Assembly (NCBI RefSeq): GCF_007860175.1
Contig: NZ_SJPX01000002.1
Coordinates: 682,001 to 746,000 of the forward strand
Source: Rubripirellula reticaptiva
GTDB lineage: Bacteria > Planctomycetota > Planctomycetia > Pirellulales > Pirellulaceae
Direction: 5' to 3'
DNA: 64,000 nucleotides
Shown here: one piece after another, positions 33,131 through 53,919 of the stretch
Layout: the number at the start of each line of letters is the position of its first letter
Numbering within the stretch: the first letter of the stretch is position 1
Made by a program: the position numbers and the translations under genes
The notes under the pieces: model-generated
What the model was told of the DNA's origin: nothing
Seen by the model: the letters and a program-made list of their open reading frames with translations, nothing else
Databases searched by the model: none

Positions 33131-34143
33131 CCATGAGCTCACAACGCTGCGTAATCTCGTTTTTATTTTTATCCGTGCTGGCTTTGTTTTGGACATCGTC
33201 CTTGCACGCACAGTCGGTGCCCCAAGAACTTCTAGGCGATTGGTCGCTTGAACTTCAATCGGGACAACCAGCTTGGATGAGCATTGTCGAAAAAGAAGGA
33301 CGCGGCTCCGTTTACATGCGTGTCTACATCGGCCCCGATGGTCCCTACGAAGTTACCGAAGTCTTCGATGGACGCATCAAGTTTTCGCTCGAACCAAAAC
33401 GCAAAACGAAAGATGGCGAGGTCACTGCGGTCCAAACGGTGGATGTTGGCTTAACCAACGGCAAGCTGGACGGAGTGATCATTCGCACGCCCAGCAAAGG
33501 CAACGCAGAAGAACGCACCCCATTCACAGGCAAGTACATTCCCGCGATGCCTCCGGTCGCTCCCGACCTGTCGAAGGTCCATTTTGGCCACCCGATTTCG
33601 CTGTTCAATGGCAAAGACTTGTCGGGCTGGAGAACTCACGAATCCGACAAGACAAATGGCTGGAGTGCAATCGACGGTATGCTGGTCAATACGACAACCA
33701 AGACGGACTTTAGCGCGACGGGCGATTATGCCAATTTAAGAACTGAAGCTGAATTTGAAGACTTCTGGCTCCACATCGAGTTTCTCGTCGAAGAAGCTCG
33801 AAACAGCGGAATCTATCTGCGCGGCATGTACGAGGCTCAAGTGGTCGACCGCGACAGCCGGATGCAAGGGATACAAGGCGTCGGCGCGATCTTCGGCAGA
33901 ATAGCTCCGTCGACCAATGCCGGTAATCCTGGCGGACACTGGCAAACCTATGATTTGACGCTCGTCGATCGCCACGTCACCGTTGTTCTAAATGGAGCGA
34001 AGGTGATCGACAACCAACCGGTCATCGGACCAACGGCCGGTGCGATTTACACCAACCCGGCCGCCTCCGGACCGATCTATCTACAAGGAGACCACACCAC
34101 CGTTCGGTTCAAGGACATCTACTTGGCTCCTGTCGTGAAATAG
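33127..34143 (+). CDS. Secreted DUF1080 protein (3-keto-disaccharide hydrolase-like)
   Basis: A 338-residue protein. A signal peptide (ISFLFLSVLALFWTSSLHA) is followed by a small beta domain (ELLGDWSLELQSGQP to about residue 140). The DUF1080 fold follows: SLFNGKDLSGWRTHESDK, NLRTEAEFEDFWLHIEF, NSGIYLRGMYEAQVVD, GHWQTYDLTLVDRHVTVVLNG and the C-terminal IYLQGDHTTVRFKDIYL. This is a concanavalin-like lectin/glucanase fold widespread in planctomycetes and linked to keto-sugar hydrolysis. The start overlaps the preceding sulfatase (ATGA); a second ATG six bases on is possible. Context suggests it works with the neighbouring oxidoreductase and sulfatases. Confidence 0.87.
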   Translation: MTMSSQRCVISFLFLSVLALFWTSSLHAQSVPQELLGDWSLELQSGQPAWMSIVEKEGRGSVYMRVYIGPDGPYEVTEVFDGRIKFSLEPKRKTKDGEVTAVQTVDVGLTNGKLDGVIIRTPSKGNAEERTPFTGKYIPAMPPVAPDLSKVHFGHPISLFNGKDLSGWRTHESDKTNGWSAIDGMLVNTTTKTDFSATGDYANLRTEAEFEDFWLHIEFLVEEARNSGIYLRGMYEAQVVDRDSRMQGIQGVGAIFGRIAPSTNAGNPGGHWQTYDLTLVDRHVTVVLNGAKVIDNQPVIGPTAGAIYTNPAASGPIYLQGDHTTVRFKDIYLAPVVK

Positions 34144-34289
34144 TGTTTTGCGCTGTCAGAAATGCCGCATCAAGCACGCAAAGCATCACCCGCGAGCCTA
34201 AACTGGTTTCCAACGGGGGCCTTGTGGTGACCGCCATTGACGGAAACCAATCACTTCCGACGTCGATAAACCTAGTACCGAAAGTACCG

Positions 34290-36572: not shown

Positions 36573-38018
36573 CTAGTTTTTCTTTCCCTTGCGTTTTGTC
36601 TTGGCGTTCGGATCATATTTCGGATTCGGTTCGGAAGGAACGATTGCGTGGACCGATTGATGCCAATCGAGCAGGTCACCGAGCAGTTCATCTCGCTTGG
36701 CGGTGTTCAACGTGGCGAGATCGGTGCGTTCGCCGATATCATCCTTTAGGTTGTAGAGTTCAGTAGCATGGTTGGTGGCGAGCTTCTCGCGGCCACCGTC
36801 AAGTTGCCATTCTTCTAAAAACAGATGTAGTTTCCAGTCACCCTTGCGAATAACGCTGACAGGACGGCTGCGGAAACCGGTCCTGACATCAAGTTCGCGG
36901 CCGCGAATGACCGGGCGATCCAGGTAACCGGGGAAGTGCCAGAAAATGGCCTGACGCTTCAGTTCGCCTTCGCCACTGAGTAGTGGCAACAAGCTTTCCC
37001 CGTCAAGCGTCTTCTCGGTCGAGGCACCAGCGGCGGCTAGGAAGGTCGGCAGCAGATCGACGTTGATGACCGGCACATCACAAACACTGCCGGGCTTCGT
37101 AACACCGGGCCAGCGCACGATCATTGGCTCGCGAATGCCGCCTTCGTAGTAACCGCCCTTGCTGCCCCGAAGAGGTTCCTGCGAAGACTGCTGAGTGGCG
37201 CCGTTGTCACTGGTAAAAACGAGAAGCGTGTTTTGATCAAGCTTCAGTTCTTTCAGTTTGTCCAACAGCATGCCGACGCTCGCGTCGAAGTCATACGTGC
37301 ATGCGGCGTACATAAGGTCGCCTTTACTAATGTCGGGATATTTCGCTTTTAACATCGCCACAGTCTCAGGTCGGCCTTGCAGTGGACCATGAATCGCGTG
37401 ATGAGCGAGGTAACAGAAGAAGGGCCCTTCCTCATTCGCTTCGATGAATTCGATTGCCTTGCGAGTCAGCGTGAAAACGCCTTTCGGATCGTCGGGCGGT
37501 CCGGCTTTGTTTCCTTCCGAGCCCTCTTTGAGTTCGCCATCACCAAACGAATCAAAAGTCAGGTCAAAACCCTGTACCGATGGTTTCGCGCCACCCGGTC
37601 CATCGAGATGCCATTTCCCAACATGACCTGTTTTGTACCCCGCCGACTTCAGCGTTTCGGCCATCGTGATATTTTCGGCGGCGAGCCCCCCTTTGTTCGG
37701 CACCGAAATCAGACGGTGCTGCGTCTTGTTTCCACGATCCGTGCTGCCGACGGCATAGACGTGATGACGCGGGGTGTAGTTTCCGGACAGCAGGCACGCG
37801 CGGCTCGGCGCACAATTACCAGCCGAGGCGTAGGCGCTGGAGAAAACCATACCTTCCTTTGCCAGCGCATCGAGCACAGGTGTTTCGCACAGGCGACTGC
37901 CCTGATAGCTAACGTCTTTCCAGCCAAGATCATCTGCGAAGACGAGAATGATATTCGGCCGGTCTGCCGATGCGATGCCATGAATCAAGCAACACAGAAA
38001 GAGAAGTGCGGTACGCAT
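36573..38018 (-). CDS. Sulfatase (Cys type)
   Basis: A 481-residue type I sulfatase. The ATG at 38018 starts a signal peptide (RTALLFLCCLIHGIASA). RPNIILVFADDLGWKDVSYQG carries the calcium-binding Asp pair. GNCAPSRACLLSG holds the formylglycine site at Cys 69. YKTGHVGKWHLDGPGG and LLVFTSDNGATQQSS are the other conserved blocks. The C-terminus ends in a lysine-rich tail (KTKRKGKKN). It belongs to the arylsulfatase A-like group common in planctomycetes. Divergent from the IS remnant and upstream, by transcription, of nothing else on its strand, it may be a single gene. Confidence 0.88.
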   Translation of the reverse strand: MRTALLFLCCLIHGIASADRPNIILVFADDLGWKDVSYQGSRLCETPVLDALAKEGMVFSSAYASAGNCAPSRACLLSGNYTPRHHVYAVGSTDRGNKTQHRLISVPNKGGLAAENITMAETLKSAGYKTGHVGKWHLDGPGGAKPSVQGFDLTFDSFGDGELKEGSEGNKAGPPDDPKGVFTLTRKAIEFIEANEEGPFFCYLAHHAIHGPLQGRPETVAMLKAKYPDISKGDLMYAACTYDFDASVGMLLDKLKELKLDQNTLLVFTSDNGATQQSSQEPLRGSKGGYYEGGIREPMIVRWPGVTKPGSVCDVPVINVDLLPTFLAAAGASTEKTLDGESLLPLLSGEGELKRQAIFWHFPGYLDRPVIRGRELDVRTGFRSRPVSVIRKGDWKLHLFLEEWQLDGGREKLATNHATELYNLKDDIGERTDLATLNTAKRDELLGDLLDWHQSVHAIVPSEPNPKYDPNAKTKRKGKKN

Positions 38019-38060
38019 GGTGGCAAGGACTTGGATTCGTGGGGCCAATGAAATATGAAT

Positions 38061-39569: not shown

Positions 39570-40412
39570 TTACGCAAATGCTGTTGAATCTCTTGGGCGT
39601 TGAAACAGCCGTAGTGGTGCCAGCAAGTTATCTCTCAAACGAGTGCCAACGTTGGTGACTCGGCAAACAATGATCGTGCTTTCCTCATCTGTCGCACTGT
39701 TGTCTTGGATCAAACCGATCAAATGAGCAATCCTGGACTCTGGGTTCGTGTGCGGCGAGTCCTGCAATGACTCAATCAGTCGAGTGTGACCGACGATTCC
39801 GCCAGTTGGGAACGCTGATTGAGCAAACCCGTTTCCGTAGAGAACGATCGTATCATCCGGTTCGAGTTTGGTTTGGATGTGACGATACTCGCTTTCACTG
39901 TACAACCCATCAACTTCCTCACCGGCGTGCGTCACGAGGCGAGTTTCGCCGTGAATGGCTTCCCACTTCTGCTCGCGAGCGCGAAAAACAAGCGGCGGAG
40001 GATTTCCAATGTTGCACATCACGAAACTTCGAGTCGAAGCAAAATAGGTCGCGACGGTTGCTGTGCCACAACAACCCTGCTTGGCAAACTCACGGAACTG
40101 ATGGCCAACGTTTTCAACCACCTTATTTTGCCAAATCGAATTGATGTTGCGAATCAGCCCGTCGCGCATCTCGCAAGAAAGTCGTCGAAACGTCTCTTCC
40201 GAGCCGCAGATGTCGGCGATCATCATCCGCGTAATCCGTCCGGATGCACATGAAGAAACGAAGTGAACTTCGCCTCCGCCTTCCCTACACTGATTTGCCT
40301 GCCGACTGCATATTTGCATTGTCAAGCCAGGCATGTCGTAGCTTGCATCATAGCTCAGGCGCCCACCGACAACCTCCAAGCACCTTTTCTGTTTCGGACG
40401 ACTACTGGGCAT
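39570..40412 (-). CDS. SpoIIE/RsbU-type PP2C-like protein, degenerate
   Basis: A 280-residue protein with a SpoIIE-type PP2C fold: EVHFVSSCASGRITRMMIADICG, TATVATYFASTRSFVMCNIGNPPPLVF, DTIVLYGNGFAQ, STIIVCRV. Several metal-site residues differ from active RsbU-like phosphatases: the GGD of motif 1 is GGE, the GDVSGHG loop is ADICGSE, and the YTDG motif is YGNG. It may be catalytically weak or a pseudophosphatase. No receiver or PAS domain is attached. It stands beside the lipid-modification genes on the same strand, 84 bases below the DUF1295 gene, so it could be the last gene of that operon. Confidence 0.75.
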   Translation of the reverse strand: MPSSRPKQKRCLEVVGGRLSYDASYDMPGLTMQICSRQANQCREGGGEVHFVSSCASGRITRMMIADICGSEETFRRLSCEMRDGLIRNINSIWQNKVVENVGHQFREFAKQGCCGTATVATYFASTRSFVMCNIGNPPPLVFRAREQKWEAIHGETRLVTHAGEEVDGLYSESEYRHIQTKLEPDDTIVLYGNGFAQSAFPTGGIVGHTRLIESLQDSPHTNPESRIAHLIGLIQDNSATDEESTIIVCRVTNVGTRLRDNLLAPLRLFQRPRDSTAFA

Positions 40413-40496
40413 ACTTGACTCACAGGATTTGAATGTTTTACGTCAGTGTAGAACGGCGACAAGCGATTCACTCGGCGGCTGCTGCAGACTGCGTTA

Positions 40497-41288
40497 TCAC
40501 ACGAGCTTACTGCCATGCCTACGTGCAGGCGGCCAAGGGAAAAACGCACTGGTCCGACAGATGTAGTCACGGTACTCACCCGAACGGTTCGCAAGGCTCT
40601 TTTCCAACAACGCAACGCCTGAGACTTTCAGCAGCAGAAACGTCATCAGAATGGGGCTGATAGCTAGCCAAAGAGTCGAAGACGAAGCCGACACCCAAAA
40701 GATACCCCACCAGATCAGTGAGTTGCCAAAGTAGTTCGGGTGCCGAGTGTAACGCCAAAGGCCTCGGTCCATCACTTTGCCATTATTTTCAGCCTTGGAC
40801 TTGAATCTCGCCAACTGGAAATCACCAACCGATTCAAACAAGAACCCAATCGCCCAAACGATCAACCCTGCATAATTCGGCAGAGACATCGGAACCGTCT
40901 CGCACGATCCAACTTGAATAGGCAGCGAAATCAACCACATCACGGCTCCCTGCAAACCAAAGACTGTGACCAGACTCACCCACCAGAATGAACCACCGCG
41001 GTGGTCCCGCATAGCTGCGTAACGCGAGTCCTCACCTTTGCCATGATTTCGCCACGCCAGGTAGGCAGCTAGCCGAACGCCCCAGATCGTCGTCATCGCG
41101 ACCAGCAGAATCGAACGCAGATCTTGCGTCGCTACAGCCATGGTCATCCAAGCGATCAGGACAAAACCGAGTCCCCAGAAAATATCGACAATGCTTGCGT
41201 CCTTCAGTCGCAAACTGACCAACCACAACACAACCATCGCGATAGAAACTAGCACGGCATTGATTATCAAGATTTGAATTACGCTCAT
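40497..41288 (-). CDS. DUF1295 membrane protein (steroid reductase-like)
   Basis: A 263-residue membrane protein with about six hydrophobic helices (IQILIINAVLVSIAMVVLWLV at the N-terminus). The DUF1295 signature WRYTRHPNYFGNSLIWWGIFW lies near residue 175-195, with the RHPNYFG core shared with isoprenylcysteine methyltransferase/steroid 5-alpha-reductase relatives. These enzymes reduce or alkylate membrane lipids. The start overlaps the preceding gene's stop (ATGA, 41285-41288), so it is co-translated with the CFA-like methyltransferase. The same gene set is found with LitR/ChrR regulons elsewhere. Confidence 0.87.
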   Translation of the reverse strand: MSVIQILIINAVLVSIAMVVLWLVSLRLKDASIVDIFWGLGFVLIAWMTMAVATQDLRSILLVAMTTIWGVRLAAYLAWRNHGKGEDSRYAAMRDHRGGSFWWVSLVTVFGLQGAVMWLISLPIQVGSCETVPMSLPNYAGLIVWAIGFLFESVGDFQLARFKSKAENNGKVMDRGLWRYTRHPNYFGNSLIWWGIFWVSASSSTLWLAISPILMTFLLLKVSGVALLEKSLANRSGEYRDYICRTSAFFPWPPARRHGSKLV

Positions 41289-42337
41289 CTCGATTGGCCC
41301 GGCAACTGCTTCACATCAAACAGATAGTGTCCAACACCCCACTGGTTACCATTGTCGTACTTAAACAATTCGGCGCAAGCCATGAAGAACATCCGCCAGC
41401 GCTGAACCAAAACCTTCGGCAGCTCGTCGCTCTTCGACGCAATCAAAGCTTGCTTCACCGCAGGCTCTCGTGCATCCAAACGCGACAACCATGCTTCACA
41501 AGTTCTTGCGTACTGCCGACCGTCAATCCACCACTGCTGCTTGACGGACAAGTCCCTTTGGTAACGCAGAAACAAATCCTCAGCCGGCATGATTCCACCG
41601 GAGAAGAAGTGGCGTCCCATCCAGTTCTGCTCGCCTTCGGTTTCGAAAGTGTAGGCTAAGTTTCGATGGCAGAAAATGTGCACAAACAGTAGTCCACTCG
41701 GGACCAACCAACGTGCGATCCGGCTAAGCAAGTCTTCGTGATTGCGAACATGCTCAAACATTTCTACCGAGACAATTCGGTCGAATTGTTCCGAGGTATC
41801 AAAGCTGCCAACGTCAGCCGTGAGAACGTTGACGTTATTAAAATGACGTTGTTCGGACTTCCGATCGATGAACGCTTTCTGGCTGGTCGAGTTCGATAGC
41901 GACGTGATTTGGCAGTCTGGATACTTTTCTGCGATCCAAAGCGAGAGCGACCCCCATCCACAGCCGAGGTCCAAGACTCGCATTCCGTTTTCAATACCGG
42001 CACGTTCGCATGTCAGCCTTAACATCGCTTCCTCCGACTCGTCCAATGACGCAGTCGGTTTTTCCCACAAGCCGCAACTGTATTTCAATCGCTTGCCCAA
42101 AACCAACTCAAAGAAATCGGCTGGCACCTCATAGTGCTGTTCGTTGGCGCGGTGAGTCTCGATCGTGACCACACTTCGGCGTTGCCGATCAGCAAATTCG
42201 TCCAAAGCGTGTTCATATTGCCCGGCGGCGAGCAACCTTTCCTGCTCGAGGCGTTCACGCAGCAACTTTCGCATACCAAAACGAATCACGGGATCGGGAA
42301 GCCAGCGTTTCTCGGCTAATTGAATCATCGACATCAT
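41285..42337 (-). CDS. CFA-like SAM methyltransferase (coclaurine-NMT-like)
   Basis: A 350-residue class I methyltransferase of the cyclopropane synthase superfamily. HYEVPADFFELVLGKRLKYSCGLW is the N-terminal hallmark, with the YSC cysteine retained. VLDLGCGWGSLSLWIAEKYP is the SAM-binding motif I. VSVEMFEHVRNHEDLL and WMGRHFFSGGIMPAEDL follow. Sequence character is closer to the CFA-like/coclaurine N-methyltransferase branch than to E. coli Cfa. It probably acts on a membrane lipid, together with the second methyltransferase three genes up. The ATG at 42337 follows AGGAA. Its stop overlaps the DUF1295 start. Confidence 0.88.
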   Translation of the reverse strand: MMSMIQLAEKRWLPDPVIRFGMRKLLRERLEQERLLAAGQYEHALDEFADRQRRSVVTIETHRANEQHYEVPADFFELVLGKRLKYSCGLWEKPTASLDESEEAMLRLTCERAGIENGMRVLDLGCGWGSLSLWIAEKYPDCQITSLSNSTSQKAFIDRKSEQRHFNNVNVLTADVGSFDTSEQFDRIVSVEMFEHVRNHEDLLSRIARWLVPSGLLFVHIFCHRNLAYTFETEGEQNWMGRHFFSGGIMPAEDLFLRYQRDLSVKQQWWIDGRQYARTCEAWLSRLDAREPAVKQALIASKSDELPKVLVQRWRMFFMACAELFKYDNGNQWGVGHYLFDVKQLPGQSR

Positions 42338-42362
42338 CTATTCCTCGATACTTCCACGTAAT

Positions 42363-42701
42363 TCAAATGGCGGGCTCATGACGCAGCAAAAGTGCGTCCC
42401 AAGAAAATTTCTCGATTTTGGATAACTGCCATAGCAGATATCCAGACATTGCGAAGTTGCCAAACATCAGGATCGCGACCAACCAAGCCCCACGAGCGAG
42501 CCAGCTCGGTTCCTTGTAAGCAACCCAAACAAAGAACGTCAGGAAACCGAAGTAAGCATCTAGCAAAGTTGCGAGAAACCAAGGGTCTGGCCACAAACCG
42601 GTACCGGCATTCAGTACGCTGCGGTCGAGTGATGCCACAGTAGTGACCCAAGTCATGCACGCGATCACAACGAAACATAAGGTCATCAAGATTCCCTTCA
42701 T
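42363..42701 (-). CDS. DUF1475 small membrane protein
   Basis: A 112-residue protein with three hydrophobic helices (LMTLCFVVIACMTWVTTVA; FLATLLDAYFGFLTFFVWVAY; WLVAILMFGNFAMSGYLLW) matching DUF1475, small membrane proteins of unknown function often found in such lipid clusters. The ATG at 42701 overlaps the preceding CFA-like gene stop (ATGA). It lies between two methyltransferase genes and probably helps the membrane lipid chemistry or anchors an enzyme. Confidence 0.85.
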   Translation of the reverse strand: MKGILMTLCFVVIACMTWVTTVASLDRSVLNAGTGLWPDPWFLATLLDAYFGFLTFFVWVAYKEPSWLARGAWLVAILMFGNFAMSGYLLWQLSKIEKFSWDALLLRHEPAI

Positions 42702-44035
42702 TGAATCGCCCCTAGCGATGGATAACGCGGCTCTAATCGGTTGCCAGGCTTCTGAAGCAGAATCTGAGAAACGCCAATTTGCTTTTCACGAAACGCACCT
42801 TCACAATAGCAAAGGTAATAATCCCAAAGCCTCAGGAAGTGATCGGTCATCCCAAGATCCCGAATCGAGTCAAGATTTCCGTGAAAGTTTTCGCGCCAAC
42901 ACTGAAGGGTTCGCGCGTAGTGCAGTGCAAAGTCCTCCAGATGTGCAAATTGAAAATCAGTCGCTCGACCGACAGCACCAGTCAGTGCCCCCAGCGAAGG
43001 CAAGCAACCACCCGGAAAAATGTACTTTTGGATGAAATCGACCGAAATCCGATAACGATCATAGCGTTGATCTGGAATGGTGATCGCTTGCAGTGCGAAC
43101 AGCCCTTCAGGCTTCAGCAAACTCGAACACTTGGCGAAAAAAGTGTCGTAGTATTCATGCCCGACGGCCTCGATCATTTCAATCGACACAAGCTTGTCAT
43201 ACTCGCCCGAAAGGTCTCGATAGTCGGACATCAACAGCGATACTCTGTCGTCGATCCCCAACTTTCCAAACCGCTGCTTGGCAAAGTCATGCTGCTGTTT
43301 TGAAATCGTAGTTGTCGTTACACGGCAACCATAGTAACGGACTGCATGTTCGGCGAAGCCGCCCCAGCCGGTGCCAATCTCAAGCACTTCATCACTCGGG
43401 GCGAGCCTCAGTTTTCGACAGATCCGATCGTACTTTTCAATCGACGCATCGCGCAGTGAACTGCCTGACGCAGGAAAGACGCCGCTAGAATAAGTCATCG
43501 TTTCGTCCAAGAACAACGAATAAAAATCGTTGCTGAGATCGTAGTGCGCAGCAATGTTGCGGCGACTTCCAACACGAGTGTTACGGTTAAACCGATGAGC
43601 GACTTTACGTCCAATGTCAAGCAACGTATTTCCCCACCCGCCTAAGTCAGATGAGGCTTGCATGTTTCGTGCAAAAACACGGATCAAAGCGACGAGATCA
43701 TCACAAGTCCAGTGACCGTCGCGATACGATTCACCGACTGCGATGCTGCCGCCGAGCGCGACCTCTCGATAGAAAACGGGATCATGCACTTGGATCGTCA
43801 CATGCAGTTCTGACGCATGATCTCCAAACGTGTTTGTCGACTCGCTATCGATGACAGTGACCCTTCCACCTTTAATATCTCGCAGCTTCGCCAACACCGC
43901 CTTACGCAAGGTGCGATTGATTAATCCTGCTGACGATTTTTTAGATTGGTCAGATCCTTCGCTGGCGGCGTATTCTGCACGTGGTTCTCTTGGTCGCTTT
44001 GCGGATGGGGATAAAACTGACATTTCTTCATCCAA
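42698..44035 (-). CDS. Cyclopropane-fatty-acyl-phospholipid synthase family methyltransferase
   Basis: A 445-residue CFA-family protein, near full length. An N-terminal lipid-binding region (about 40-150) is followed by IAAHYDLSNDFYSLFLDETMTYSSGVF, LEIGTGWGGFAEHAVRYYG (SAM), TISKQQHDFAKQR, LVSIEMIEAVGHEYYDTFF, and FIQKYIFPGGCLPSL. The Cys of the YSC motif (E. coli C139) is Ser here (TYSSGVF), as in the CFA relatives often paired with DUF1365. Its reaction may be methylation other than plain cyclopropanation. Two ATGs at 44035 and 44023 could start it. It overlaps the DUF1365 gene by up to 115 bases. Confidence 0.87.
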   Translation of the reverse strand: MDEEMSVLSPSAKRPREPRAEYAASEGSDQSKKSSAGLINRTLRKAVLAKLRDIKGGRVTVIDSESTNTFGDHASELHVTIQVHDPVFYREVALGGSIAVGESYRDGHWTCDDLVALIRVFARNMQASSDLGGWGNTLLDIGRKVAHRFNRNTRVGSRRNIAAHYDLSNDFYSLFLDETMTYSSGVFPASGSSLRDASIEKYDRICRKLRLAPSDEVLEIGTGWGGFAEHAVRYYGCRVTTTTISKQQHDFAKQRFGKLGIDDRVSLLMSDYRDLSGEYDKLVSIEMIEAVGHEYYDTFFAKCSSLLKPEGLFALQAITIPDQRYDRYRISVDFIQKYIFPGGCLPSLGALTGAVGRATDFQFAHLEDFALHYARTLQCWRENFHGNLDSIRDLGMTDHFLRLWDYYLCYCEGAFREKQIGVSQILLQKPGNRLEPRYPSLGAIQ

Positions 44036-44733
44036 AGTCTTAGAGCTTGAAAATAGATGGCGCTAATGATGTGGGCAGCTGCAATGGGACGCCGAACCAT
44101 GCCGCGAATGAGCTGTCCGTCAGTCATCGCAATTCGATTCAACTGCAAATCAGCTTGGAAGATCCGGTCGCCTTGGCGATCACATCCCAACGACAAATTC
44201 AACTTTTCACCGGGCGAGCCAATTCGCCACTCGTACTGCGAATCCATCCCCATAAACGGTGACACATGAAATTCTTTGGCATGAGAATAACGTTCGGCAG
44301 AACCGGGACGCCGATTGCCCTCCCAAAGCACGTAAGCGTGACGTTCATTCCATGGCGTGTTGCTAACTTCTGCCACCTGCGCGACCAGCGACTCGTGCTG
44401 GTCGAAACAGTAGAAAACGTTGATAGGACTGAAGTAGACGCCAAAATGACGCAACTGTGTCAGTAATCTGACAGGACCGTCCAATCGCAGCCCTGTCTTT
44501 TCTCTAACGAAATCATAAACAGTATTGATCATTGGCAAGGCTGGATTGCCGAAGTGATCGGCGCGCCGATACGAAGCAGGCGCGAAACGACGGTTGCTTA
44601 GACACCAACTCGCTTGCACGACATCAGCGACCTCTGCCAAGTCTAGGTAAGCCCAGGATGTGGAGTGTTGGAATTGATGAGCTGGAGACAATCGTTGATG
44701 CCGAACGTGACCGCGATAAAGGCAACTGTGCAT
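43921..44733 (-). CDS. DUF1365 protein
   Basis: A 270-residue DUF1365 protein. The ATG at 44733 is preferred, because MHSCLYRGHVRHQRLSPAHQF is the classic family opening; the longer frame above is the neighbouring gene read out of frame. Later motifs: FGVYFSPINVFYCFD, EVSNTPWNERHAYVLW, AKEFHVSPFMGMD, and a hydrophobic C-terminus. The function is unknown, but the gene nearly always accompanies an FAD-dependent oxidoreductase and CFA-like methyltransferase, including in Rhodobacter and Pseudomonas light or singlet-oxygen regulons. It starts 8 bases after the oxidoreductase stop. Confidence 0.9.
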   Translation of the reverse strand: MHSCLYRGHVRHQRLSPAHQFQHSTSWAYLDLAEVADVVQASWCLSNRRFAPASYRRADHFGNPALPMINTVYDFVREKTGLRLDGPVRLLTQLRHFGVYFSPINVFYCFDQHESLVAQVAEVSNTPWNERHAYVLWEGNRRPGSAERYSHAKEFHVSPFMGMDSQYEWRIGSPGEKLNLSLGCDRQGDRIFQADLQLNRIAMTDGQLIRGMVRRPIAAAHIISAIYFQALRLWMKKCQFYPHPQSDQENHVQNTPPAKDLTNLKNRQQD

Positions 44734-44741
44734 CGTCAAGG

Positions 44742-46043
44742 CTAGGCCCCAACCAGCGGAGAAGCGACTTCTTTGACTTGATTCGCGGGATCTGAAAGCA
44801 CATCCAAGCCCAGCCCGAATCGACGCGTTACAGCTAGGGCACTGTTGACACCATCTTCGTGAAATCCATAACCCCAGTACGCGCCGCAAAAGCTAACACG
44901 ATTCACGCCGTTGATACTGCAAAAATTTCGCTGAGAAGCGATCGAATCGTGAGAAAAAACGGGATGCTCGAATTCGAACCGCCTCACGATTTTGCTCGGG
45001 TCAATGCTGCACTGAGGATTAAGTGTTAAACAAAGCGGACCCGGCAGCCCAAGACTTTGAAGCCGATTCAGGTCATAAGTGACGCTGGCCCGATTACTAG
45101 GTTGCAGTGGGATGTGGTAGTTCCAACTCGCCCAAGCATGACGTCGGCGCGGAAGAACGGATTCGTCGGTATGCAGAACCGCTTTGTTGGCTTGGTAAGA
45201 GAATCCAGCCAGCACTTCTCGCTCATCTTCGCTCGCGTCTTTGAGTAACTGCAACGATTGATCAGCATGCGATGCCAAAATAACGTGATCGTATTTGGTG
45301 TCTCGATCAGGCAAACTCAGTTGCACTCCGTCTTCAACTCGACGAACTTCATGTACCGATGAATTCAAAAAAACGCGGCCACGCAGAGGACGCATCAACG
45401 GTTCGACGTAGCTGCGTGAACGATTCGCGATGGTCAACCATTGAGGACGATCGGTCAATTGTAGCAAACCGTGATTCCGACAGAAACCTAAAATGAACCT
45501 AGCAGGAAAACTGGAGAGGCAGGCAGGATCGGCTGACCAGATCGCTGCCGACATAGGCACAAAGTACTGCTCACGAAACTCAACTCCGACGCCGATGCCA
45601 TTGAGAAATTCTCCGAGCGAGGTTCGATCGTCACTCGATTGGCAAAACTCAATCGCCTTTCGATTGAATCGCGTAATGTCACGAAGCATTCTGTAAAAGG
45701 ACGGACGAACCAGGTTGCGTCTCTGTGCAAACAAACCATTCAGAGAACTTCCCTGGTATTCGAGTCCTGTTCGCCAACAACGAATGCTCAAACTCATGTC
45801 ACTTTCTTGCGTCCCGACCCCCAAAAGTTCAAGCATCCGGCAGAAGTTAGGATAAGTTCGACGGTTCAAAACCATGAAGGCGACATCGGCGGATATGTCG
45901 CTATCGTAAACGGACACGTCTACCGTATGAGCGTGCCCACCAAGATGCGAGGACGACTCGTACAGATCGACTTCATGTTTTGCGGAGAGAATGCGGGCAG
46001 CGAGATTCCCACTGATGCCCGATCCGACGACTGCGATTCGCAT
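44742..46043 (-). CDS. FAD/NAD(P)-binding amine-oxidase-type oxidoreductase
   Basis: A 433-residue flavoprotein. The ATG at 46043 gives MRIAVVGSGISGNLAARIL, the GxGxxG Rossmann motif, with the acidic end of strand 2 at DLYESSSHLGGHAHT. SAAIWSADP and SLGLPGPLCLTLNPQ belong to the conserved core, and FCGAYWGYGFHEDGVNSAL is the C-terminal FAD-binding motif. Such enzymes open DUF1365/CFA operons. A desaturation or oxidation of the lipid acyl chain is a plausible step. It is the first gene of the minus-strand set, with a 212-base gap to the fasciclin gene upstream. Confidence 0.88.
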   Translation of the reverse strand: MRIAVVGSGISGNLAARILSAKHEVDLYESSSHLGGHAHTVDVSVYDSDISADVAFMVLNRRTYPNFCRMLELLGVGTQESDMSLSIRCWRTGLEYQGSSLNGLFAQRRNLVRPSFYRMLRDITRFNRKAIEFCQSSDDRTSLGEFLNGIGVGVEFREQYFVPMSAAIWSADPACLSSFPARFILGFCRNHGLLQLTDRPQWLTIANRSRSYVEPLMRPLRGRVFLNSSVHEVRRVEDGVQLSLPDRDTKYDHVILASHADQSLQLLKDASEDEREVLAGFSYQANKAVLHTDESVLPRRRHAWASWNYHIPLQPSNRASVTYDLNRLQSLGLPGPLCLTLNPQCSIDPSKIVRRFEFEHPVFSHDSIASQRNFCSINGVNRVSFCGAYWGYGFHEDGVNSALAVTRRFGLGLDVLSDPANQVKEVASPLVGA

Positions 46044-46255
46044 AAAAAAATGTCTGAAGTTTGACCTAGCGATTGTTTGCCGCAATCATTTTCCACGGCA
46101 AAACGCCTCGCAACTTTTGAATCGAACCATAACCGTATTGCGGTAGCAAGCCCCTCCGCAACAATCCAATGACCAAGCCAACTCGGCATTCCAGAAAAAC
46201 CAGTCACCCGGCTGGGAGGAACGCAGCCAAATAATCGAACTCGTTGTAACGTGAA

Positions 46256-47437
46256 CTAACGCACGTACGCCATGCTGTTAAAAGCGTGATCCAATGCATG
46301 CCGCAGTGTCCAAGCTTGGTGGTCCGCGTTGGTAGTATGCTGAGCGTTGGATAATGCTGTTTGCAAAACGTTCCTGGTGGTTGAACTCATCTGTTGCGAG
46401 TGGCCCGAAAGCAAATTGCCGACAGTCTCCATATACACAGCGGTACACTGGCTTACGTTTCCGCCATTGTACAACGGCGCACCTTGCCCAATCGCCAGCT
46501 CAATCATACGACGAGGACTAATCGAAACTGACTCCTTCACGGGCGGCAACATCACGGAATCGATCACGTGAATAACACCGTTAACGGCATCAATGTCCGT
46601 GCTGATCAATTTCGCATCGTTGACTCTCGCTACTCCGTCAACGATCGCAACTTGGACGCTGCCACCCTCCAAAGTCCTCGCTTTACCCGCCGCGACAGCC
46701 CCATCCGAATAGACCCGACCAGCGACAACGTGATACTTCAAGATCGAAGCTAGCTTGGCCTTGTTCTCCGGCTCGAGCAGCGAGCTGACCGTGCCTTGGG
46801 GAAGTTTCGCGAATGCCGCGTCCGTAGGGGCAAAGATGGTTAGCGGACTTTGCCCCGCCAACGTTTCGACAAGACCAGCCGCGCCAGCAGCGGCGAGCAA
46901 TGTCGTAAAAACTCCAGCGTTGCCGGCAGCGGTCGGGATGTCGTCAGACGAAGGCAAGATCACTTGATCAATGACGTGAATGACCCCGTTGCTGCACAAG
47001 ATGTCGCTGTCGATGATGCTCGCTGCATCGATCTTAAGCCGCGCATCCGCGAACTGAATATCCACTCGCTGACCGTTCAAGGTTGTCGCGTTACTCAGCC
47101 TAACCGCTTCCTTCGCTGGCACTGCACCAGGGATTACGTGGTAGGTCAGAATATCCACCAGCTTTTGTTTGTTCTCCGGCCTCAGCAGAGTCTCAACCGT
47201 TCCCGCCGGCAGTTTAGAGAACGCCTCGTCCGTCGGCGCAAAAACAGTGAAGGGACCGTCACCTTTAAGCACCTCGACGAGGTCGACGGCACCAAGTGCG
47301 GCCGCGAGCGTGGTGAAAGACCCGGACTCGACTGTCGTGTCAACAATGTCTTTTCTCGCAGGCTCAGCAGAGACAACAGCACTCACAGTCACAAAAGACG
47401 CAGCTATTGAGAGCGCAAAACATTTCCCGACTTTCAT
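46256..47437 (-). CDS. Secreted double-fasciclin (FAS1) protein
   Basis: A 393-residue protein. Start candidates are ATG 47437 (best signal peptide: [20 protein letters not shown]), 47464 and 47479. Two FAS1 domains lie at about residues 28-160 and 165-300, each with [19 protein letters not shown] first strands and HVIDxVxLP ends. FAS1 proteins mediate adhesion. The C-terminal about 90 residues ([21 protein letters not shown]) match a small helical domain seen after other bacterial proteins. It is encoded 171 bases below the sigma factor and may be its target. Confidence 0.87.
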
Positions 47438-47608
47438 CAACTCTAAATTCGACGCAACTTTCATAGTGAACCATTTCATTGAAGTGAAAAACTGACCCTC
47501 GCTCGTTACGACAGTAGCCGAGCGACTTGGGATTGAAGCGTCGCCTGCGTTTTTGACAAGAGAAGAAATCGGTAACCCGGACAGAAAATCTTGCAACGCA
47601 AAACTCAC

Positions 47609-48658
47609 TCAACTCGATGTTTCTGCAGAATCCGAATCAGCCATTTCGATCAGCTTATTGGTAGCACGAAGCTCAAGCTGTCGCACTCTCTCCTTCGAAA
47701 TCCCGAGGCGATTTGCGATCGCTTGCAGCGTTTTGATATTTCGGTGAGACCCCAGCGCAAACCTAGCGCGAATGATGAACTTCTCACGCCGATCAAGAGA
47801 GTTGAGCATCCCAGCGAGCCGACTTCTCAACAGATGCCATCTTTTCTCGCTGAACGCCGACATATGACGTTCATCGGTAACCTCGATTTCCATGTCCTGC
47901 AGGCCACCGATGGCTTGCTGCTGCTCTTCCTGCGTCTCCATCACTGAGCGATATGCATTACGTCGAATCACAAGCGTTGCGTAGGTGCTGAATCGGAATC
48001 CACGACCGAAGTCGAACTTGTCGACGGCACGGAACATTCCAATGATGCCGTCGCTGAGAAGATCATCGAACGAGTTTGTTTGATTTACAAACTTCTTCAC
48101 GATGCTAAAGACGAGACGCAAGTTTGCCTCAACAATTTGATCTCTGTGCCAATCAGCCATCGCGAGCAAACGATCAACAAGCTCAAGACGTACACGCGAA
48201 GGGCGCTGCGGGTTTAGCATGCTCTGATAGTACGCCGCCTGATGACGCAAGTAATTCATTCGGCAAAACAGCCTTCGCTCTTGCTCGGGTGTCAGCAACG
48301 GCGCCTCGCATAGGCGACCTAGATGAATCGGCAAATCGAAACTTGCTTTGCGAATTCGGGACACGCCCAAATCGGAGTTTCGATCTTGCAAGTCGAGCGG
48401 CTCAGCAAACAGCTCGTCGCCAAAACCGGAATCACCGAAGCGTTCGTTAGAGATGAACTCGATCGGCTCGGCAAGTCGGTGCTTTGTCGCTCTCTTCAAC
48501 ACGGACGCGGAAGAATCCCTCCGATCGAGAATGCGTTCGTTGGCGACTGCCATCGCCGCCGCAAGCTCCGACGCTCCCAACCATTTTGGCGCTCGTGCGA
48601 GCGTTCCACGGCTGTGTGACGAAACCGTGATTTCCGCTTGATCTTTGACTGCAGCCAT
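47609..48658 (-). CDS. Sigma-70 family factor (RpoD-like, short)
   Basis: A 349-residue sigma factor. The ATG at 48658 is used. Residues about 1-115 are a non-conserved leader. Region 1.2-like: LGRLCEAPLLTPEQERRLF. Region 2: ANLRLVFSIVKKFVN, DDLLSDGIIGMFRAVDKFDFGRG, RFSTYATLVIRRNAYR. Region 4: LDRREKFIIRARFAL and the helix-turn-helix LQAIANRLGISKERVRQLELRA. Region 3 is nearly absent, so it is not a housekeeping sigma. It probably reads a small regulon, likely including itself. A 9-bp tandem repeat shared with the divergent regulator lies 15 bases above the start. Confidence 0.87.
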   Translation of the reverse strand: MAAVKDQAEITVSSHSRGTLARAPKWLGASELAAAMAVANERILDRRDSSASVLKRATKHRLAEPIEFISNERFGDSGFGDELFAEPLDLQDRNSDLGVSRIRKASFDLPIHLGRLCEAPLLTPEQERRLFCRMNYLRHQAAYYQSMLNPQRPSRVRLELVDRLLAMADWHRDQIVEANLRLVFSIVKKFVNQTNSFDDLLSDGIIGMFRAVDKFDFGRGFRFSTYATLVIRRNAYRSVMETQEEQQQAIGGLQDMEIEVTDERHMSAFSEKRWHLLRSRLAGMLNSLDRREKFIIRARFALGSHRNIKTLQAIANRLGISKERVRQLELRATNKLIEMADSDSAETSS

Positions 48659-48672
48659 AATCCCATTCCACA

Positions 48673-48699
48673 AAGTGAACGTTTTGAACGATTGAAACG
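48673..48699 (-). promoter_or_regulatory. Three tandem 9-bp units before the sigma factor gene
   Basis: Read on the minus strand, the units are CGTTTCAAT, CGTTCAAAA and CGTTCACTT, immediately consecutive. The array ends 15 bases before the sigma ATG at 48658, so a bound protein would block transcription or early RNA synthesis. Confidence 0.6.
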
Positions 48700-48917
48700 T
48701 TCATAATGTTTAACGTGTTCCTCGTCCATTCGCAACCATCAAAGCGAACATTTCTTCCAAACTTCAGATCATTCAGAATTAACAGACCTAAAAAAACGGT
48801 AAAACACAACATTTATCGAACACCTCCAGCATCGACCTCACCACCCGAGGGGTTCCGCTGGTCAATCTTAAAAAGCCGAAACCCTTGCCATTCAACCACG
48901 ATAGGCTAAGTTAATAA

Positions 48918-48935
48918 CGTTCAAAACGTCCAAAA
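48918..48935 (+). promoter_or_regulatory. Two tandem 9-bp units before the MerR/B12 regulator gene
   Basis: CGTTCAAAA followed directly by CGTCCAAAA; 13 bases separate the array from the ATG at 48949. The first unit is identical to the middle unit of the array before the sigma gene. This fits negative autoregulation. Confidence 0.6.
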
Positions 48936-48948
48936 CCAAAGATATCCC

Positions 48949-49845
48949 ATGGCAGCTCAACAGCCTCATTTTTCGCCGCGTCAATTGGCGGATGCTCTTC
49001 AGGCGAGCGAATCTTCGGTGAAACGATGGTGCGATCAGGGGGCCATTCCAACGATCCGCACCGTGGGAGGACATCGCCGGATCACGCTAGACGGTCTTCA
49101 GCACTACTTGCAGACGACCAACCAAGTCCTGCTGGCCCCCGAAGCTCTCGGACTCGCGAAGGTTCCATCGATCGAAACAATTTCGATTCCTGGGGGCGAG
49201 GATCCCGACCAGCAATCGTTTCGTAACTTCCTTGCCAAGGGAGACGAAGCCGCATGCCGGCGGGTTCTACGCAGCCGACTCGCCTTAGGAGAAAGCCTCG
49301 GCCAGACAGCAGATTATTTCATCACCGACGCTATGCACGGTTTTGGCGTTGCGTGGCAATGCGACGAACTTGATGCTTATCAAGAGCGACGTGGCTGCGA
49401 CATATGCATCCGCTTGATCAACGAGCTCCGATCAGAGCTACCCCGACTTCCCGCGGCGGCTCCAGTTGCAATCGGTGGATCGCCACCACACGACCCGTAT
49501 CAGTTACCGACCGCACTGATCGAGCTTTCGCTTCGAGAAATCGGCTGGAACGCAACTAGCCTCGGCAGCAATCTGCCGATTGACAGTTTACTTCAGGCGG
49601 CCCGCGACTGCAGTCCCAAAATGGTCTGGCTTAGCGTTTCGACAATCGAAGATCAAGTGAGCTTTGTTAGCGACGAACTGCGTCTTGCGGACGGACTCGG
49701 CGAAGACGTGTCGCTGCTAATTGGCGGGCGTGCGCTGGTGGACGACATCCGATCGAAACTGCAATACACCGGCTTTTGCAATAGTCTGAAAAGCCTAGGT
49801 GAATTGGCAACCATGATTCGGCTTAACGCAACAAGGAACCGCTAG
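48949..49845 (+). CDS. MerR-type regulator with B12-binding-like domain
   Basis: A 298-residue protein. Residues about 8-60 are a MerR-family helix-turn-helix (FSPRQLADALQASESSVKRW...RTVGGHRRITLDGL). Residues about 90-165 are the helical B12-binding cap. Residues about 175-290 are the Rossmann-like B12 domain (IELSLREIGWNATSLGSNLPIDSL). In CarH the cap has W-x9-EH with an extra His after the Trp; here W136 is followed by Q137 and the pair at 146-147 is E-R. The lower axial His appears kept (H181 in PPHDPY), but the E-x-H-xx-G pattern is broken. It may sense something other than light. Divergent from the sigma gene. Confidence 0.87.
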   Translation: MAAQQPHFSPRQLADALQASESSVKRWCDQGAIPTIRTVGGHRRITLDGLQHYLQTTNQVLLAPEALGLAKVPSIETISIPGGEDPDQQSFRNFLAKGDEAACRRVLRSRLALGESLGQTADYFITDAMHGFGVAWQCDELDAYQERRGCDICIRLINELRSELPRLPAAAPVAIGGSPPHDPYQLPTALIELSLREIGWNATSLGSNLPIDSLLQAARDCSPKMVWLSVSTIEDQVSFVSDELRLADGLGEDVSLLIGGRALVDDIRSKLQYTGFCNSLKSLGELATMIRLNATRNR

Positions 49846-49949: not shown

Positions 49950-51182
49950 CTACTTCCAGCGGTAGACTTTTAGGGCGGTTAAGTCTCGCACGATCACCAG
50001 GCCATCAAGCACAGCAACGTGCGCCCACGAGTCATCGGCAACCTTGACCTCGTCGGTGATCTTCAACTGGCTCTCGTCCACATCGATCAGCCGCAATTCA
50101 CCAGAGCTGTCCAGAGCAAGAATATCATCTCCATTGCTGACCATGCTCCAGTACTTACCGAACGGCGAACTTGTCCATCGATTCGTGCCGTCCTCGACCG
50201 CCAGCGCGGCTACTCGCTGATTCTTCATGTGCAAGTAGATCGTGTCATCGATTAGCACTGGCGAGGACATGTATCCTTGCAGATTCTGTGACCACAACTC
50301 GTTCACGCCCCAGTCGTTCTCAGCACTTCGAGTGACTTCAAAAAGCTGAGACTTGCCGCTATGAGCGGCGGTAAAAACTCGGTTCCCAAAAACAAGTGGC
50401 GTCAAAATGTTCATACCACGAAATGCTTCAATCGGTTCCTTCCAAAAAACTTCCCCTGATTGCAGATCAACACCACATAATTCAGTCCGTGTTTGAACTA
50501 CTAGTTGACGTACGTCAGCGATTGTTGCGATCACAGGACTCGAAAAAGCCCCACTGCTCATCATGTCCGCACCGTTTTCTAGCGTTTTCCAAACCAAACT
50601 TCCGTCATCAAGATTCAGCTTGACAACGCCCCCCCCTGTCTGAACATAAACTGCGTCATCATCAATCAGTGGCGAACACACAGCACCGAACGCAGGCATA
50701 GGCGTCTTCATCGACTCTGGAAAATTTACTCGCCAGATTTCCTCACCCGTCTTAGGTTTCAGACACACCAAGACGTCTCGCATACCCATCACAACCAAGT
50801 GTGACTGCGTGCAAGCAGGCGTGCTTCGAATCCAGTCACCATTGGCGGCAGCGAAGAATGGGATCGTCATTGATCCTGGCCACTGAGCCGACCAGGCAAC
50901 CTCACCCGAGCTTAACCTGAATGCGGTGACTCGTTCGTCTTGCTTCCCGATCGTCTCGGTAGTGAACACCAAGCCATCCGAAACAACTGGTCCGCTGTAG
51001 CTGGGCGATAGTGGCTTTTCCCAAACGAGCTGCAAGTTCTCTTGCAGTTTGCCAGGCCACTTGGCACCTGGCAGCTGGCTATCGCGTGTCGGTCCCCGCC
51101 ATTGGTTCCATACTCCCGATGGCTCTACGCCGGACAACGTGACAGTGGATAGCAAAAGAACCAAGCTGAGCAGTTGTCGCAT
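49950..51182 (-). CDS. Secreted PQQ-like beta-propeller protein
   Basis: A 410-residue protein. The ATG at 51182 is preceded by AAGGAA about 6 bases upstream and gives a signal peptide (RQLLSLVLLLSTVTLSG). The mature part starts NQWRGPTRD and then has repeated propeller blades with GEIAWSAQW- or GEVFWKEP-type turns (VTAFRLSSGEVAW; VVKLNLDDGSLVW; ELCGVDLQSGEVFW), as in PQQ-binding-like/BamB proteins. No catalytic residues for alcohol dehydrogenase are evident. Planctomycetes have many such proteins, with unknown partners. Divergent from the alpha/beta hydrolase gene. Confidence 0.85.
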   Translation of the reverse strand: MRQLLSLVLLLSTVTLSGVEPSGVWNQWRGPTRDSQLPGAKWPGKLQENLQLVWEKPLSPSYSGPVVSDGLVFTTETIGKQDERVTAFRLSSGEVAWSAQWPGSMTIPFFAAANGDWIRSTPACTQSHLVVMGMRDVLVCLKPKTGEEIWRVNFPESMKTPMPAFGAVCSPLIDDDAVYVQTGGGVVKLNLDDGSLVWKTLENGADMMSSGAFSSPVIATIADVRQLVVQTRTELCGVDLQSGEVFWKEPIEAFRGMNILTPLVFGNRVFTAAHSGKSQLFEVTRSAENDWGVNELWSQNLQGYMSSPVLIDDTIYLHMKNQRVAALAVEDGTNRWTSSPFGKYWSMVSNGDDILALDSSGELRLIDVDESQLKITDEVKVADDSWAHVAVLDGLVIVRDLTALKVYRWK

Positions 51183-51410
51183 CACGTTTCCTTCGAATAA
51201 AGCATTTGTCGAATCGTAGCAATCAGGTAAGCCCCTGCCATACAAAGCGTTGCCATCCAAAACGGCGATGCGAGTGTATCATGCATCGATCCAGTGATCG
51301 TCTGGTTGGCGGCGAACTGAATCGAAAGTCAACGCCATACCGTCGATCAATCGATACTGTTTAATCGACAACCAGTCGAACTTCCATGCAAATTTCGAAT
51401 ATGATCCACC

Positions 51411-52554: not shown

Positions 52555-53919
52555 CTAGTAATTCAATTTCGCGCCCGCGGATGGTTTCTGGCGATCATTC
52601 TTCCACCACTCGCTGGGGCCTTCCGCTTCGATGTCGGCCCAGGTTTTGAAGAGAAGGCTTTTCATCTCTTTCAACTTCTCAGGCATCGTTGCAGCCAAGT
52701 CATTTTCTTCTTTCCAGTCCTGTTGAATTTCGAAGAGCATAAAATCTGACATCGTATCGTTGCCCACGATTTTCCAATCGCCCATCCGCAGCGCCACTCG
52801 ATTATCAGCAGGAGACACGTGCGTACGCCAGAACAACGGCACCTTACGTTCGACAGACTTGCCTGCAAATGCGGGCACCATGCTGACGCCATCGATCGTG
52901 CGATCATTAGGCAGCGGGATGCTAACGATGTCCAGTACCGTGGCAAAAACGTCGGTACCAATCACAGGGACGTCGCTGGTCGAGCCCGCTTCGATTTTAC
53001 CTGGCCAACGGGCCAGCCCCGGCACGCGAATACCGCCTTCATGGTCGCTACGTTTGTGACCTCGCAATCCGCCAGTCACACCGCCAAAACTAGGAACCGG
53101 ACCGTTGTCCGATGTAAAGAACAGCAGAGTATTATCGCTGACCCCTTGCGCATCCAACGCGTCCATGACCATCCCTAGTGCGTTGTCCATCTGAGTAATG
53201 TTCCCCATGTATTCGCTATTCTTGTGCCCTTCGTAGAGCGACTGAAAACGCGAATCCGTGGCGATCGGCGAATGCGGTTCGTGCACCCAAACCGACATTG
53301 CGAATGGCTTAGACGAATCATGAACTTCGGCTAACCAATGCGCTGCCTCCGCCGCAAGCAGCTGGGCGGAATAGCCCTGCGTCTCACCCACCGGAATGCC
53401 GTTGCGAACGAAGTTATCTGGATTCTTGTGACTCGGGCTAGCGTTGTTATGCGTATACATCCAGTAGTCAAATCCGTGCTCTCCTGGTTGAGGGTATTCC
53501 GGTTTATTGAACTGCTGTAGCGAATTGAGATGCCATTTTCCAACATGGCACGTTTCGTACCCGACTTCCTTCAACAGCTTTGGATAGGTGATTTCACTAG
53601 TCCGCAAATACGCCTCGTGGTTTCCCGACAGGTGACGCCAAACGCCGTTGCGATACGGAGTCCGTCCGGTCAGAATCGCGGAACGCGAAGGCGAACACAC
53701 GCCACAGGCTGAATAGCACTGCATAAACTTCACCCCCTGCGACGCGAGCTTATCCATGTTCGGGGTTTGGATCAGCTTGTTGCCATAGGTTGCAGAGTCG
53801 CCCCATCCCATGTCGTCGGCGACAAAGACGAGAATATTGGGTTTCGAGGAATCATCGGCCGAGAACGCCGCCGGTGGCATGTACAAGAAAAGGCTGAGCG
53901 TAATTAAGAATGTCTTCAT
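52555..53919 (-). CDS. Sulfatase (Cys type)
   Basis: A 454-residue type I sulfatase with signal peptide (KTFLITLSLFLYMPPAAFSA). KPNILVFVADDMGWGDSATYG holds the calcium Asp pair. ACGVCSPSRSAILTGRTPYRNGVW has the canonical C-S-P-S-R with formylglycine at Cys 75. ETCHVGKWHLNS and LLFFTSDNGPVPSF are conserved. It opens a minus-strand set that also includes the PVC cytochrome, SGNH and ThuA proteins and two further sulfatases. Sequence blocks resemble arylsulfatase A/N-acetylgalactosamine-type enzymes, without a firm substrate. Confidence 0.9.
   Translation of the reverse strand: MKTFLITLSLFLYMPPAAFSADDSSKPNILVFVADDMGWGDSATYGNKLIQTPNMDKLASQGVKFMQCYSACGVCSPSRSAILTGRTPYRNGVWRHLSGNHEAYLRTSEITYPKLLKEVGYETCHVGKWHLNSLQQFNKPEYPQPGEHGFDYWMYTHNNASPSHKNPDNFVRNGIPVGETQGYSAQLLAAEAAHWLAEVHDSSKPFAMSVWVHEPHSPIATDSRFQSLYEGHKNSEYMGNITQMDNALGMVMDALDAQGVSDNTLLFFTSDNGPVPSFGGVTGGLRGHKRSDHEGGIRVPGLARWPGKIEAGSTSDVPVIGTDVFATVLDIVSIPLPNDRTIDGVSMVPAFAGKSVERKVPLFWRTHVSPADNRVALRMGDWKIVGNDTMSDFMLFEIQQDWKEENDLAATMPEKLKEMKSLLFKTWADIEAEGPSEWWKNDRQKPSAGAKLNY

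Follow-up and report, generated by a model that had tools for sequence, protein, structure and literature searches.

We analysed a 64,000-nucleotide stretch of the Rubripirellula reticaptiva genome (7.85 Mb in total), contig NZ_SJPX01000002.1, positions 682,001 to 746,000, hereafter called the window, and focused on a locus in which genes for an alternative sigma factor and a fasciclin protein are followed by a coupled operon of predicted lipid enzymes: an FAD oxidoreductase, a DUF1365 protein, two methyltransferases (CFA1 and CFA2), and the membrane proteins DUF1475 and DUF1295. A regulator with a MerR/BldC-type helix-turn-helix (HTH) domain and a CarH-fold C-terminal domain is encoded divergently from the sigma gene. 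We propose that these genes form an island against photo-oxidative stress that carries a control circuit of its own, a reading to which we assign a probability of about 0.6. Judged by homology, its function would be the known furan-lipid response to photo-oxidative stress, and its control a new variant.

The control circuit is predicted from the 290 bases between the start codons of the sigma factor and the regulator. This region contains two tandem 9-bp repeat sites, O1 and O2, each oriented towards the nearest start, and at O1 a weaker third repeat extends to 48701. The repeat unit, AAAACGTTC in two copies, has an AT-rich start and a C end, matching the layout AATTXXXX(C), in which a BldC monomer occupies one 9-bp direct repeat (PMC5859096). 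The period of the conserved operator is thus 9 bp, not the tandem 11 bp of CarH operators (PMC8156234), and we infer that the regulator binds this site.

Relatives' loci (L-numbers) and genomes (G-numbers) were then compared, with 60 family genomes drawn for loci centred on CFA1 and all 241 used for the exact-operator, DUF1365 and regulator counts. Among 80 loci found by protein, 48 had at least one operator site (AWCGTNCAAAACRTTC, up to one mismatch) within 750 bases upstream of the regulator. The results showed 65 such sites in 59,793 bases upstream of the regulator versus one in the other 1,194,758 bases, and the reversed pattern gave none. The exact pattern AWCGTNCAAAACRTTCW occurred 52 times in 46 of the 241 genomes (reversed control, 10), and 41 of these sites lay between -120 and +400 nt from the 5' end of an open frame for the sigma factor, the regulator or fasciclin. 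To these we added the site in L080, which precedes the regulator's HTH codons by 193 nt, leaving 10 outside; the other regulator-side sites lay 65-375 nt before those codons, apart from L211, which is inside the gene. L196 had no HTH-codon motif in this position check, and seven duplicate loci were removed (L084, L086, L094, L181-L183 and L191). Because the family loci from which the operator pattern was taken overlap the counted sets, these counts are not fully independent. Operator sites precede a fasciclin homologue in five loci (L079, L083, L085, L187 and L195), and no clear copy was seen in the upstream regions of some relatives (e.g. L064 and L061). A wider regulon in the window's own genome was considered and rejected: AACGTYCAAAACRTYC with up to one mismatch gave seven sites (reversed control, three), of which, beyond O1 and O2, four lay inside long open frames and one (L074) at convergent 3' ends, and we therefore claim no further target.

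The sigma factor has 349 amino acids, with regions 2 and 4 recognised and region 3 not recognised; the linker between regions 2 and 4 is about 30-45 residues, against about 88 in SigA1 (9dvs). Its highest scores were to RpoD-type models (113-114 bits, every one below its own cut-off), and the broad sigma70-ECF superfamily model TIGR02937 passed (82.5 against a cut-off of 42.9). Seven weaker relatives were found in the same genome. The sigma and regulator genes are divergent neighbours in 64 of the 80 loci, and the gene that follows the sigma gene changes between relatives, so that sigma factor and regulator form a core control module whose cargo varies; in the window this cargo would be the fasciclin gene and the lipid operon. 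Sigma genes of the same layout lie divergent from the FAD gene in four loci, L051, L052, L058 and L062; the regulator had no match in the genomes of three of them (G018, G052 and G045). A candidate sigma promoter, CTTGTC-N16-CTATAG, was found exactly three times in 1.93 Mb, each time near an FAD gene (L035:12771, L036:7296 and L055:12999), with an estimated 0.7 or so expected over three spacings for a motif that was derived from FAD upstream regions and counted on the same loci. Five one-mismatch matches included one before FAD (L037) and one at the regulator (L151), and we treat this motif as a lead only.

Other genes recur around the sigma/regulator pair. An SRPBCC-epimerase (DUF1731) fusion family is encoded downstream of the sigma gene (e.g. 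L102, L103, L119, L122 and L129) and is a probable further target of the circuit; the sole homologue in the window's genome sits away from the sigma locus. Also recurrent are a UbiA prenyltransferase (10 loci in its cluster; L123:1503-2633) and a CofH/MqnC-type radical SAM protein (9 loci; L109:5624-6979), which hint at quinone genes.

Several observations weigh against the proposed island. The regulator and DUF1365 were both present in 71 of the 241 genomes, with DUF1365 only in 44, the regulator only in 94 and neither in 32, so that their co-occurrence is not positive (Fisher odds ratio 0.55, p 0.038). In 42 of the 80 related loci the SRPBCC-epimerase gene (Pfam assignment seen for five of the 42), not fasciclin or the lipid operon, follows the sigma gene. 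The exact CTTGTC-N16-CTATAG motif is found nowhere in the window, though it stands before FAD in three relatives, and no operator lies in front of the lipid operon itself within the window. The sigma/regulator pair might therefore be independent of the lipid operon and serve envelope or other stress genes, such as the SRPBCC-epimerase and fasciclin genes. The co-occurrence counts, the epimerase loci and the distribution in the window's genus (DUF1365 in 8 of 22 genomes, the regulator in 18 of 22) all favour such independence, which we nevertheless regard as rather unlikely, because the regulator and DUF1365 lie within 10 kb of each other in at least 35 of the 71 genomes that have both, far above random placement, and because sigma genes of the same layout face FAD even in genomes without the regulator. 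In six further genomes the two are on the same contig but distant, and in 26 on different contigs; the regulator's place was listed for 148 of 165 genomes (67 of the 71 with both), with at most nine candidates scored per genome. The earlier note on this DNA had grouped the sigma factor, a MerR/B12 regulator and the lipid operon together and had pointed to their joint occurrence in relatives as a check. The pairing of sigma factor and regulator, which have a conserved operator in common, is supported, but a single fixed unit with the lipid operon finds no support in the phylogenetic profile, even though proximity is frequent; the scattered occurrence that the note had named as a refuting result is partly seen, in that so few genomes of the genus have DUF1365.

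The regulator (298 amino acids) retains the cobalamin-domain fold, with a B12-binding Pfam match of 24.3 bits (under the cut-off of 32.1), 25.4 bits to the NCBIfam CarH model (cut-off 400) and, for its HTH, 32.5 bits to the BldC model NF033787 (cut-off 77). CarH homologues are defined by the motifs Wx9EH and ExHxxG...GG, the latter with the axial histidine (PMC8156234). Both are broken here: the first reads W136...E146-R147, with ER in 81 of 81 sequences, and the second D182-x-Y184, with Tyr (77), Thr (3) or Phe (1) at the axial position. Conserved in the family are GxxW (W in 80/81), GxxxP (81/81) and Asp182 (81/81); Cys28 is invariant, and Cys150 and Cys277 are nearly so. The set consists of the best 80 of 212 relatives, found via one HTH pattern and all planctomycete-named except L124 ('bacterium'), so its counts lean to near relatives. 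A more varied phylum-wide draw of 30 loci contained eight distant planctomycete relatives that keep EH, one of which (L245) also keeps the axial His.

These results do not bear out a B12 light sensor, as had been suggested, since both CarH-defining cobalamin-contact histidines are replaced. The regulator could still be an ordinary adenosylcobalamin (AdoCbl) photoreceptor, with cobalamin still bound, Tyr184 or water on the lower side of the cobalt, and Arg147 standing where CarH has the EH histidine; light would release this protein from O1 and O2. The retained fold, GxxW, GxxxP and Asp182 are consistent with this, as are the distant relatives with EH and the fact that CtMerR and photocobilins differ at another pocket position (TtCarH His132) yet sense light (PMC11796333). 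We consider it improbable, because both motifs fail in every one of the 81 sequences and because Myxococcus xanthus CarA, which lacks Wx9EH, functions without B12 (PMC8156234). With slightly less than even confidence, we propose instead a CarH-fold class in which the histidines have become a fixed Arg and Tyr, and which senses photo-oxidative stress and uses BldC-type 9-bp repeats to control an RpoD-like sigma factor. As both cobalamin-contact histidines are exchanged, sensing would proceed via a different ligand, such as heme, the ligand of the AppA SCHIC domain, or via thiols.

The most plausible reading of the lipid operon is a furan-fatty-acid pathway. In Rhodobacter sphaeroides and Rhodopseudomonas palustris, where this pathway was resolved genetically, UfaM methylates an 18:1 acyl chain, the FAD/NAD-binding protein UfaD desaturates the methylated chain, the DUF1365 protein UfaO incorporates oxygen taken from O2, and FufM carries out a second methylation; furan formation by R. 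sphaeroides requires both UfaD and UfaO (Lemke et al. 2020, PMC7380195). By family homology, the counterparts of UfaM, UfaD and UfaO (CFA1, the FAD protein and DUF1365) lie side by side in the window, and CFA2 appears FufM-like; these equivalences are drawn from protein families and from homologues in proteobacterial clusters. CFA1 is 39.5-49.9% and CFA2 39.5-48.7% identical to their counterparts in four such clusters, and the FAD protein 38-47% identical to those in five. The best solved relative of CFA2 is coclaurine N-methyltransferase, with cyclopropane synthase 6bqc far behind (E 1.3e-30). Arabidopsis AT4G33110, named after FufM, is 37.87% identical to FufM (PMC10940516). This likeness, together with the position of CFA2 in the coclaurine branch, makes a dimethyl furan fatty acid a plausible product. 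AT4G33110 itself is presumably of the coclaurine N-methyltransferase type. Cyclopropane or mid-chain methyl-branched acids are an unlikely product instead of furans: cyclopropane synthases (6bqc) are the best solved relatives of CFA1, and such synthases also occur among plant relatives that have the CFA1/FAD fusion, but the UfaD-like and UfaO-like genes are coupled here, and CFA2 falls in the branch to which FufM's plant homologue seems to belong.

In order from FAD to DUF1295, the intergenic gaps are 8, -103, -4, 25 and -4 nt, indicating that this block is probably a single operon. Its DUF1365 gene is single-copy in the genome. Among 37 family loci around a strong CFA1 match, DUF1365 was present in 35, FAD in 34, DUF1295 in 30, CFA2 in 24, the regulator in 14, the sigma factor in 10, DUF1475 and the SpoIIE-type phosphatase in four each, and fasciclin in three (presence meaning a match above 60 bits, with some loci cut by contig ends). 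The association of genes in the lipid cluster exceeds chance.

To place these genes outside the planctomycetes, a plasmid collection was searched with CFA2, which returned 290 records with a top identity of 49%; five proteobacterial clusters were examined among 50 listed matches. Mesorhizobium terrae (L216) has, in a row, fasciclin, CFA1, DUF1365, FAD, sigma, ChrR, a hydrolase, DUF1295 and CFA2. Burkholderia anthina has sigma, anti-sigma, DUF1295, CFA2, FAD, DUF1365 and CFA1, without fasciclin, and Ensifer has FAD, sigma, ChrR, DUF1295, CFA2 and DUF1365, with CFA1 and fasciclin not in its incomplete gene table. In Acinetobacter piscicola all five enzymes are present, a photolyase-family gene lies close by and the gene listing shows no sigma factor; Salinivibrio has MerR, photolyase, FAD, DUF1365 and CFA1. 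DUF1475 was absent from the gene listings of all five. The idea of an extended set peculiar to planctomycetes had to be dropped, since the Mesorhizobium, Burkholderia and Acinetobacter clusters, and the less complete Ensifer one, contradict it; M. terrae has the set, including CFA2, DUF1295 and fasciclin, beside sigma-70/ChrR.

The photo-oxidative link comes from such sets. In Chlamydomonas, singlet-oxygen induction of the CFA1, CFA2, FAS2 fasciclin, DUF1365 and DUF1295 genes is SAK1-dependent, and one table labels CFA2 a coclaurine N-methyltransferase (PMC4067076); these counterparts were paired with the window genes by name, not sequence. In R. sphaeroides the fasciclin gene RSP_1409 is up in the same photo-oxidative comparison as the furan genes (PMC7074977), and an Azospirillum fasciclin is controlled by RpoE-ChrR (cited in PMC10949492). 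The blue-light response of Vibrio cholerae is mediated by both a MerR-like protein and ChrR (PMC5241685), a case that bears out only the general link. The singlet-oxygen-induced algal and proteobacterial sets are the best support for the photo-oxidative reading, and from them we infer that light or singlet oxygen may be the signal at this locus. No ChrR or anti-sigma family protein was found among the 19 proteins scanned (33127-57516). In the window and in relatives, no photolyase or carotenoid gene was seen beside the sigma/regulator pair among the scanned proteins, which make up a part of the neighbours.

The features of the locus are given in Table 1. Pfam and NCBIfam profile scans confirmed the ten-gene inventory of the earlier note and identified a gene it had left unnamed as a SpoIIE phosphatase; its coupled operon and its two distinct methyltransferases were likewise upheld, and its furan-type lipid, of the kind under RpoE/ChrR or LitR elsewhere, gains support from enzyme homology. 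Spacing figures use start codons picked by us.

Table 1. Genes and probable operators of the locus, in window coordinates
Feature	Position	Strand	Evidence
SpoIIE-type PP2C phosphatase	39570-40412	minus	PF07228 E 7.8e-14
DUF1295 membrane protein (steroid-reductase/PEMT-like family), final gene of coupled operon	40497-41288	minus	PF06966 E 7.3e-70
CFA2, second S-adenosylmethionine methyltransferase, FufM-like, coclaurine N-methyltransferase branch	41285-42337	minus	best PDB match 6gkv E 8.1e-74
DUF1475 small membrane protein	42363-42701	minus	PF07343 E 1.7e-9, profile positions 162-219 of 236
CFA1, UfaM-like fatty acyl methyltransferase	42698-44023 (open frame to 44035)	minus	PF02353 E 5.5e-86
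DUF1365, UfaO-like predicted furan-ring oxygenase	43921-44733 (open frame to 44889)	minus	PF07103 E 1.9e-67
FAD oxidoreductase (amine-oxidase-like), UfaD-like predicted desaturase	44742-46043 (open frame to 46085)	minus	PF01593 E 7e-18
Fasciclin protein, two-domain, probably exported	46256-47479 (open frame to 47608)	minus	PF02469 E 3.7e-74
Alternative sigma-70 factor	47609-48658 (open frame to 48673)	minus	Pfam regions 2 and 4 only
Probable operator O1 ATCGTTCAAAACGTTC, tandem 9-bp direct repeat	48677-48692	minus	18 nt before sigma ATG
Probable operator O2 AACGTTCAAAACGTCC	48916-48931	plus	17 nt before regulator ATG
Regulator, MerR/BldC-type HTH (HTH_17) and CarH-fold C-terminal domain	48949-49845	plus	Pfam

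The spacings of 129 nt between sigma and fasciclin and 212 nt between fasciclin and FAD would leave room for promoters. The SpoIIE gene lies 84 nt after DUF1295, and its homologues in the CFA1-centred loci are those of L033, L035, L036 and L057; the protein is a possible partner-switch phosphatase that might act on the sigma factor, and no anti-sigma or antagonist partner for it was seen among the scanned window genes. A gene for a PQQ-repeat beta-propeller (BamB-like; 49950-51260, minus) adjoins the regulator; in several relatives (e.g. L053, L044, L064, L066 and L057) the homologous gene comes after the regulator in the same orientation, which is reversed in the window. Three sulfatase genes flank the island (34143-35828, 36573-38048 and 52555-53919).

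Based on these findings, we propose the following mechanism. The regulator would bind the tandem 9-bp repeats, located by phylogenetic footprint, before its own gene and the divergent sigma gene and control both, repression being the likelier sign given that 17-18 nt separate the sites from the start codons. A photo-oxidative cue would alter the regulator without CarH cobalamin chemistry, in keeping with the loss of both histidines. The sigma factor would then be made along with the downstream fasciclin protein, and expression of the lipid operon may be directed by it or result from read-through. By homology to UfaM, CFA1 would methylate a membrane acyl chain carrying a cis double bond; the FAD protein, like UfaD, would introduce a double bond; the DUF1365 protein, like UfaO, would insert oxygen and close the furan ring; and CFA2, like FufM, would add a second methyl. 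The resulting mono- and dimethyl furan fatty acids would act as scavengers of singlet oxygen. Our literature search, chiefly of open-access papers, found among the papers listed no report of a furan fatty acid pathway or comparable system in planctomycetes. The analysis thus offers, for Pirellulaceae, a predicted circuit of regulator, operator and sigma factor whose sites are exactly located, suggests that a CarH light-sensor fold has seemingly been retained for a different signal, and assigns to Planctomycetota a predicted pathway for mono- and dimethyl furan fatty acids, tied, along with fasciclin, to the singlet-oxygen-induced algal and proteobacterial set.

We finally compared the locus with known systems. 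By homology it resembles the Ufa and FufM pathway of R. sphaeroides and R. palustris in its CFA-type methylase, FAD desaturase, DUF1365 oxygenase and second methylase; unlike that pathway, its genes are all coupled in a single operon that also includes DUF1475 and DUF1295, they have no neighbouring ChrR, and the furan product is predicted from genes. The M. terrae cluster shares fasciclin, CFA1, DUF1365, FAD, DUF1295, CFA2 and a sigma factor with the window, but pairs a short sigma-70 protein with a ChrR anti-sigma factor, whereas the window has a sigma factor without region 3 and a CarH-fold regulator. The regulator is like CarH/LitR class I (TtCarH, CtMerR), which controls photoprotection genes elsewhere, in its HTH and cobalamin-domain fold and, for TtCarH, in its direct-repeat operator, and differs in lacking Wx9EH and the axial His and in its operator period. 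LitR classes II-V and M. xanthus CarA are family members without AdoCbl-dependent function, or with function not known; class II retains the helical bundle only, whereas the window regulator keeps the whole fold with two fixed substitutions and has a sigma gene as predicted target. BldC shares the HTH type and the 9-bp direct repeats but has 68 residues and no effector domain, whereas the window regulator carries a C-terminal domain. Streptomyces LitR, which reportedly works with an extracytoplasmic-function (ECF) sigma factor of light-induced carotenogenesis, is likewise a MerR/B12-fold regulator tied to a dedicated sigma factor, and differs in its carotenoid output and in the ECF type of that sigma factor.

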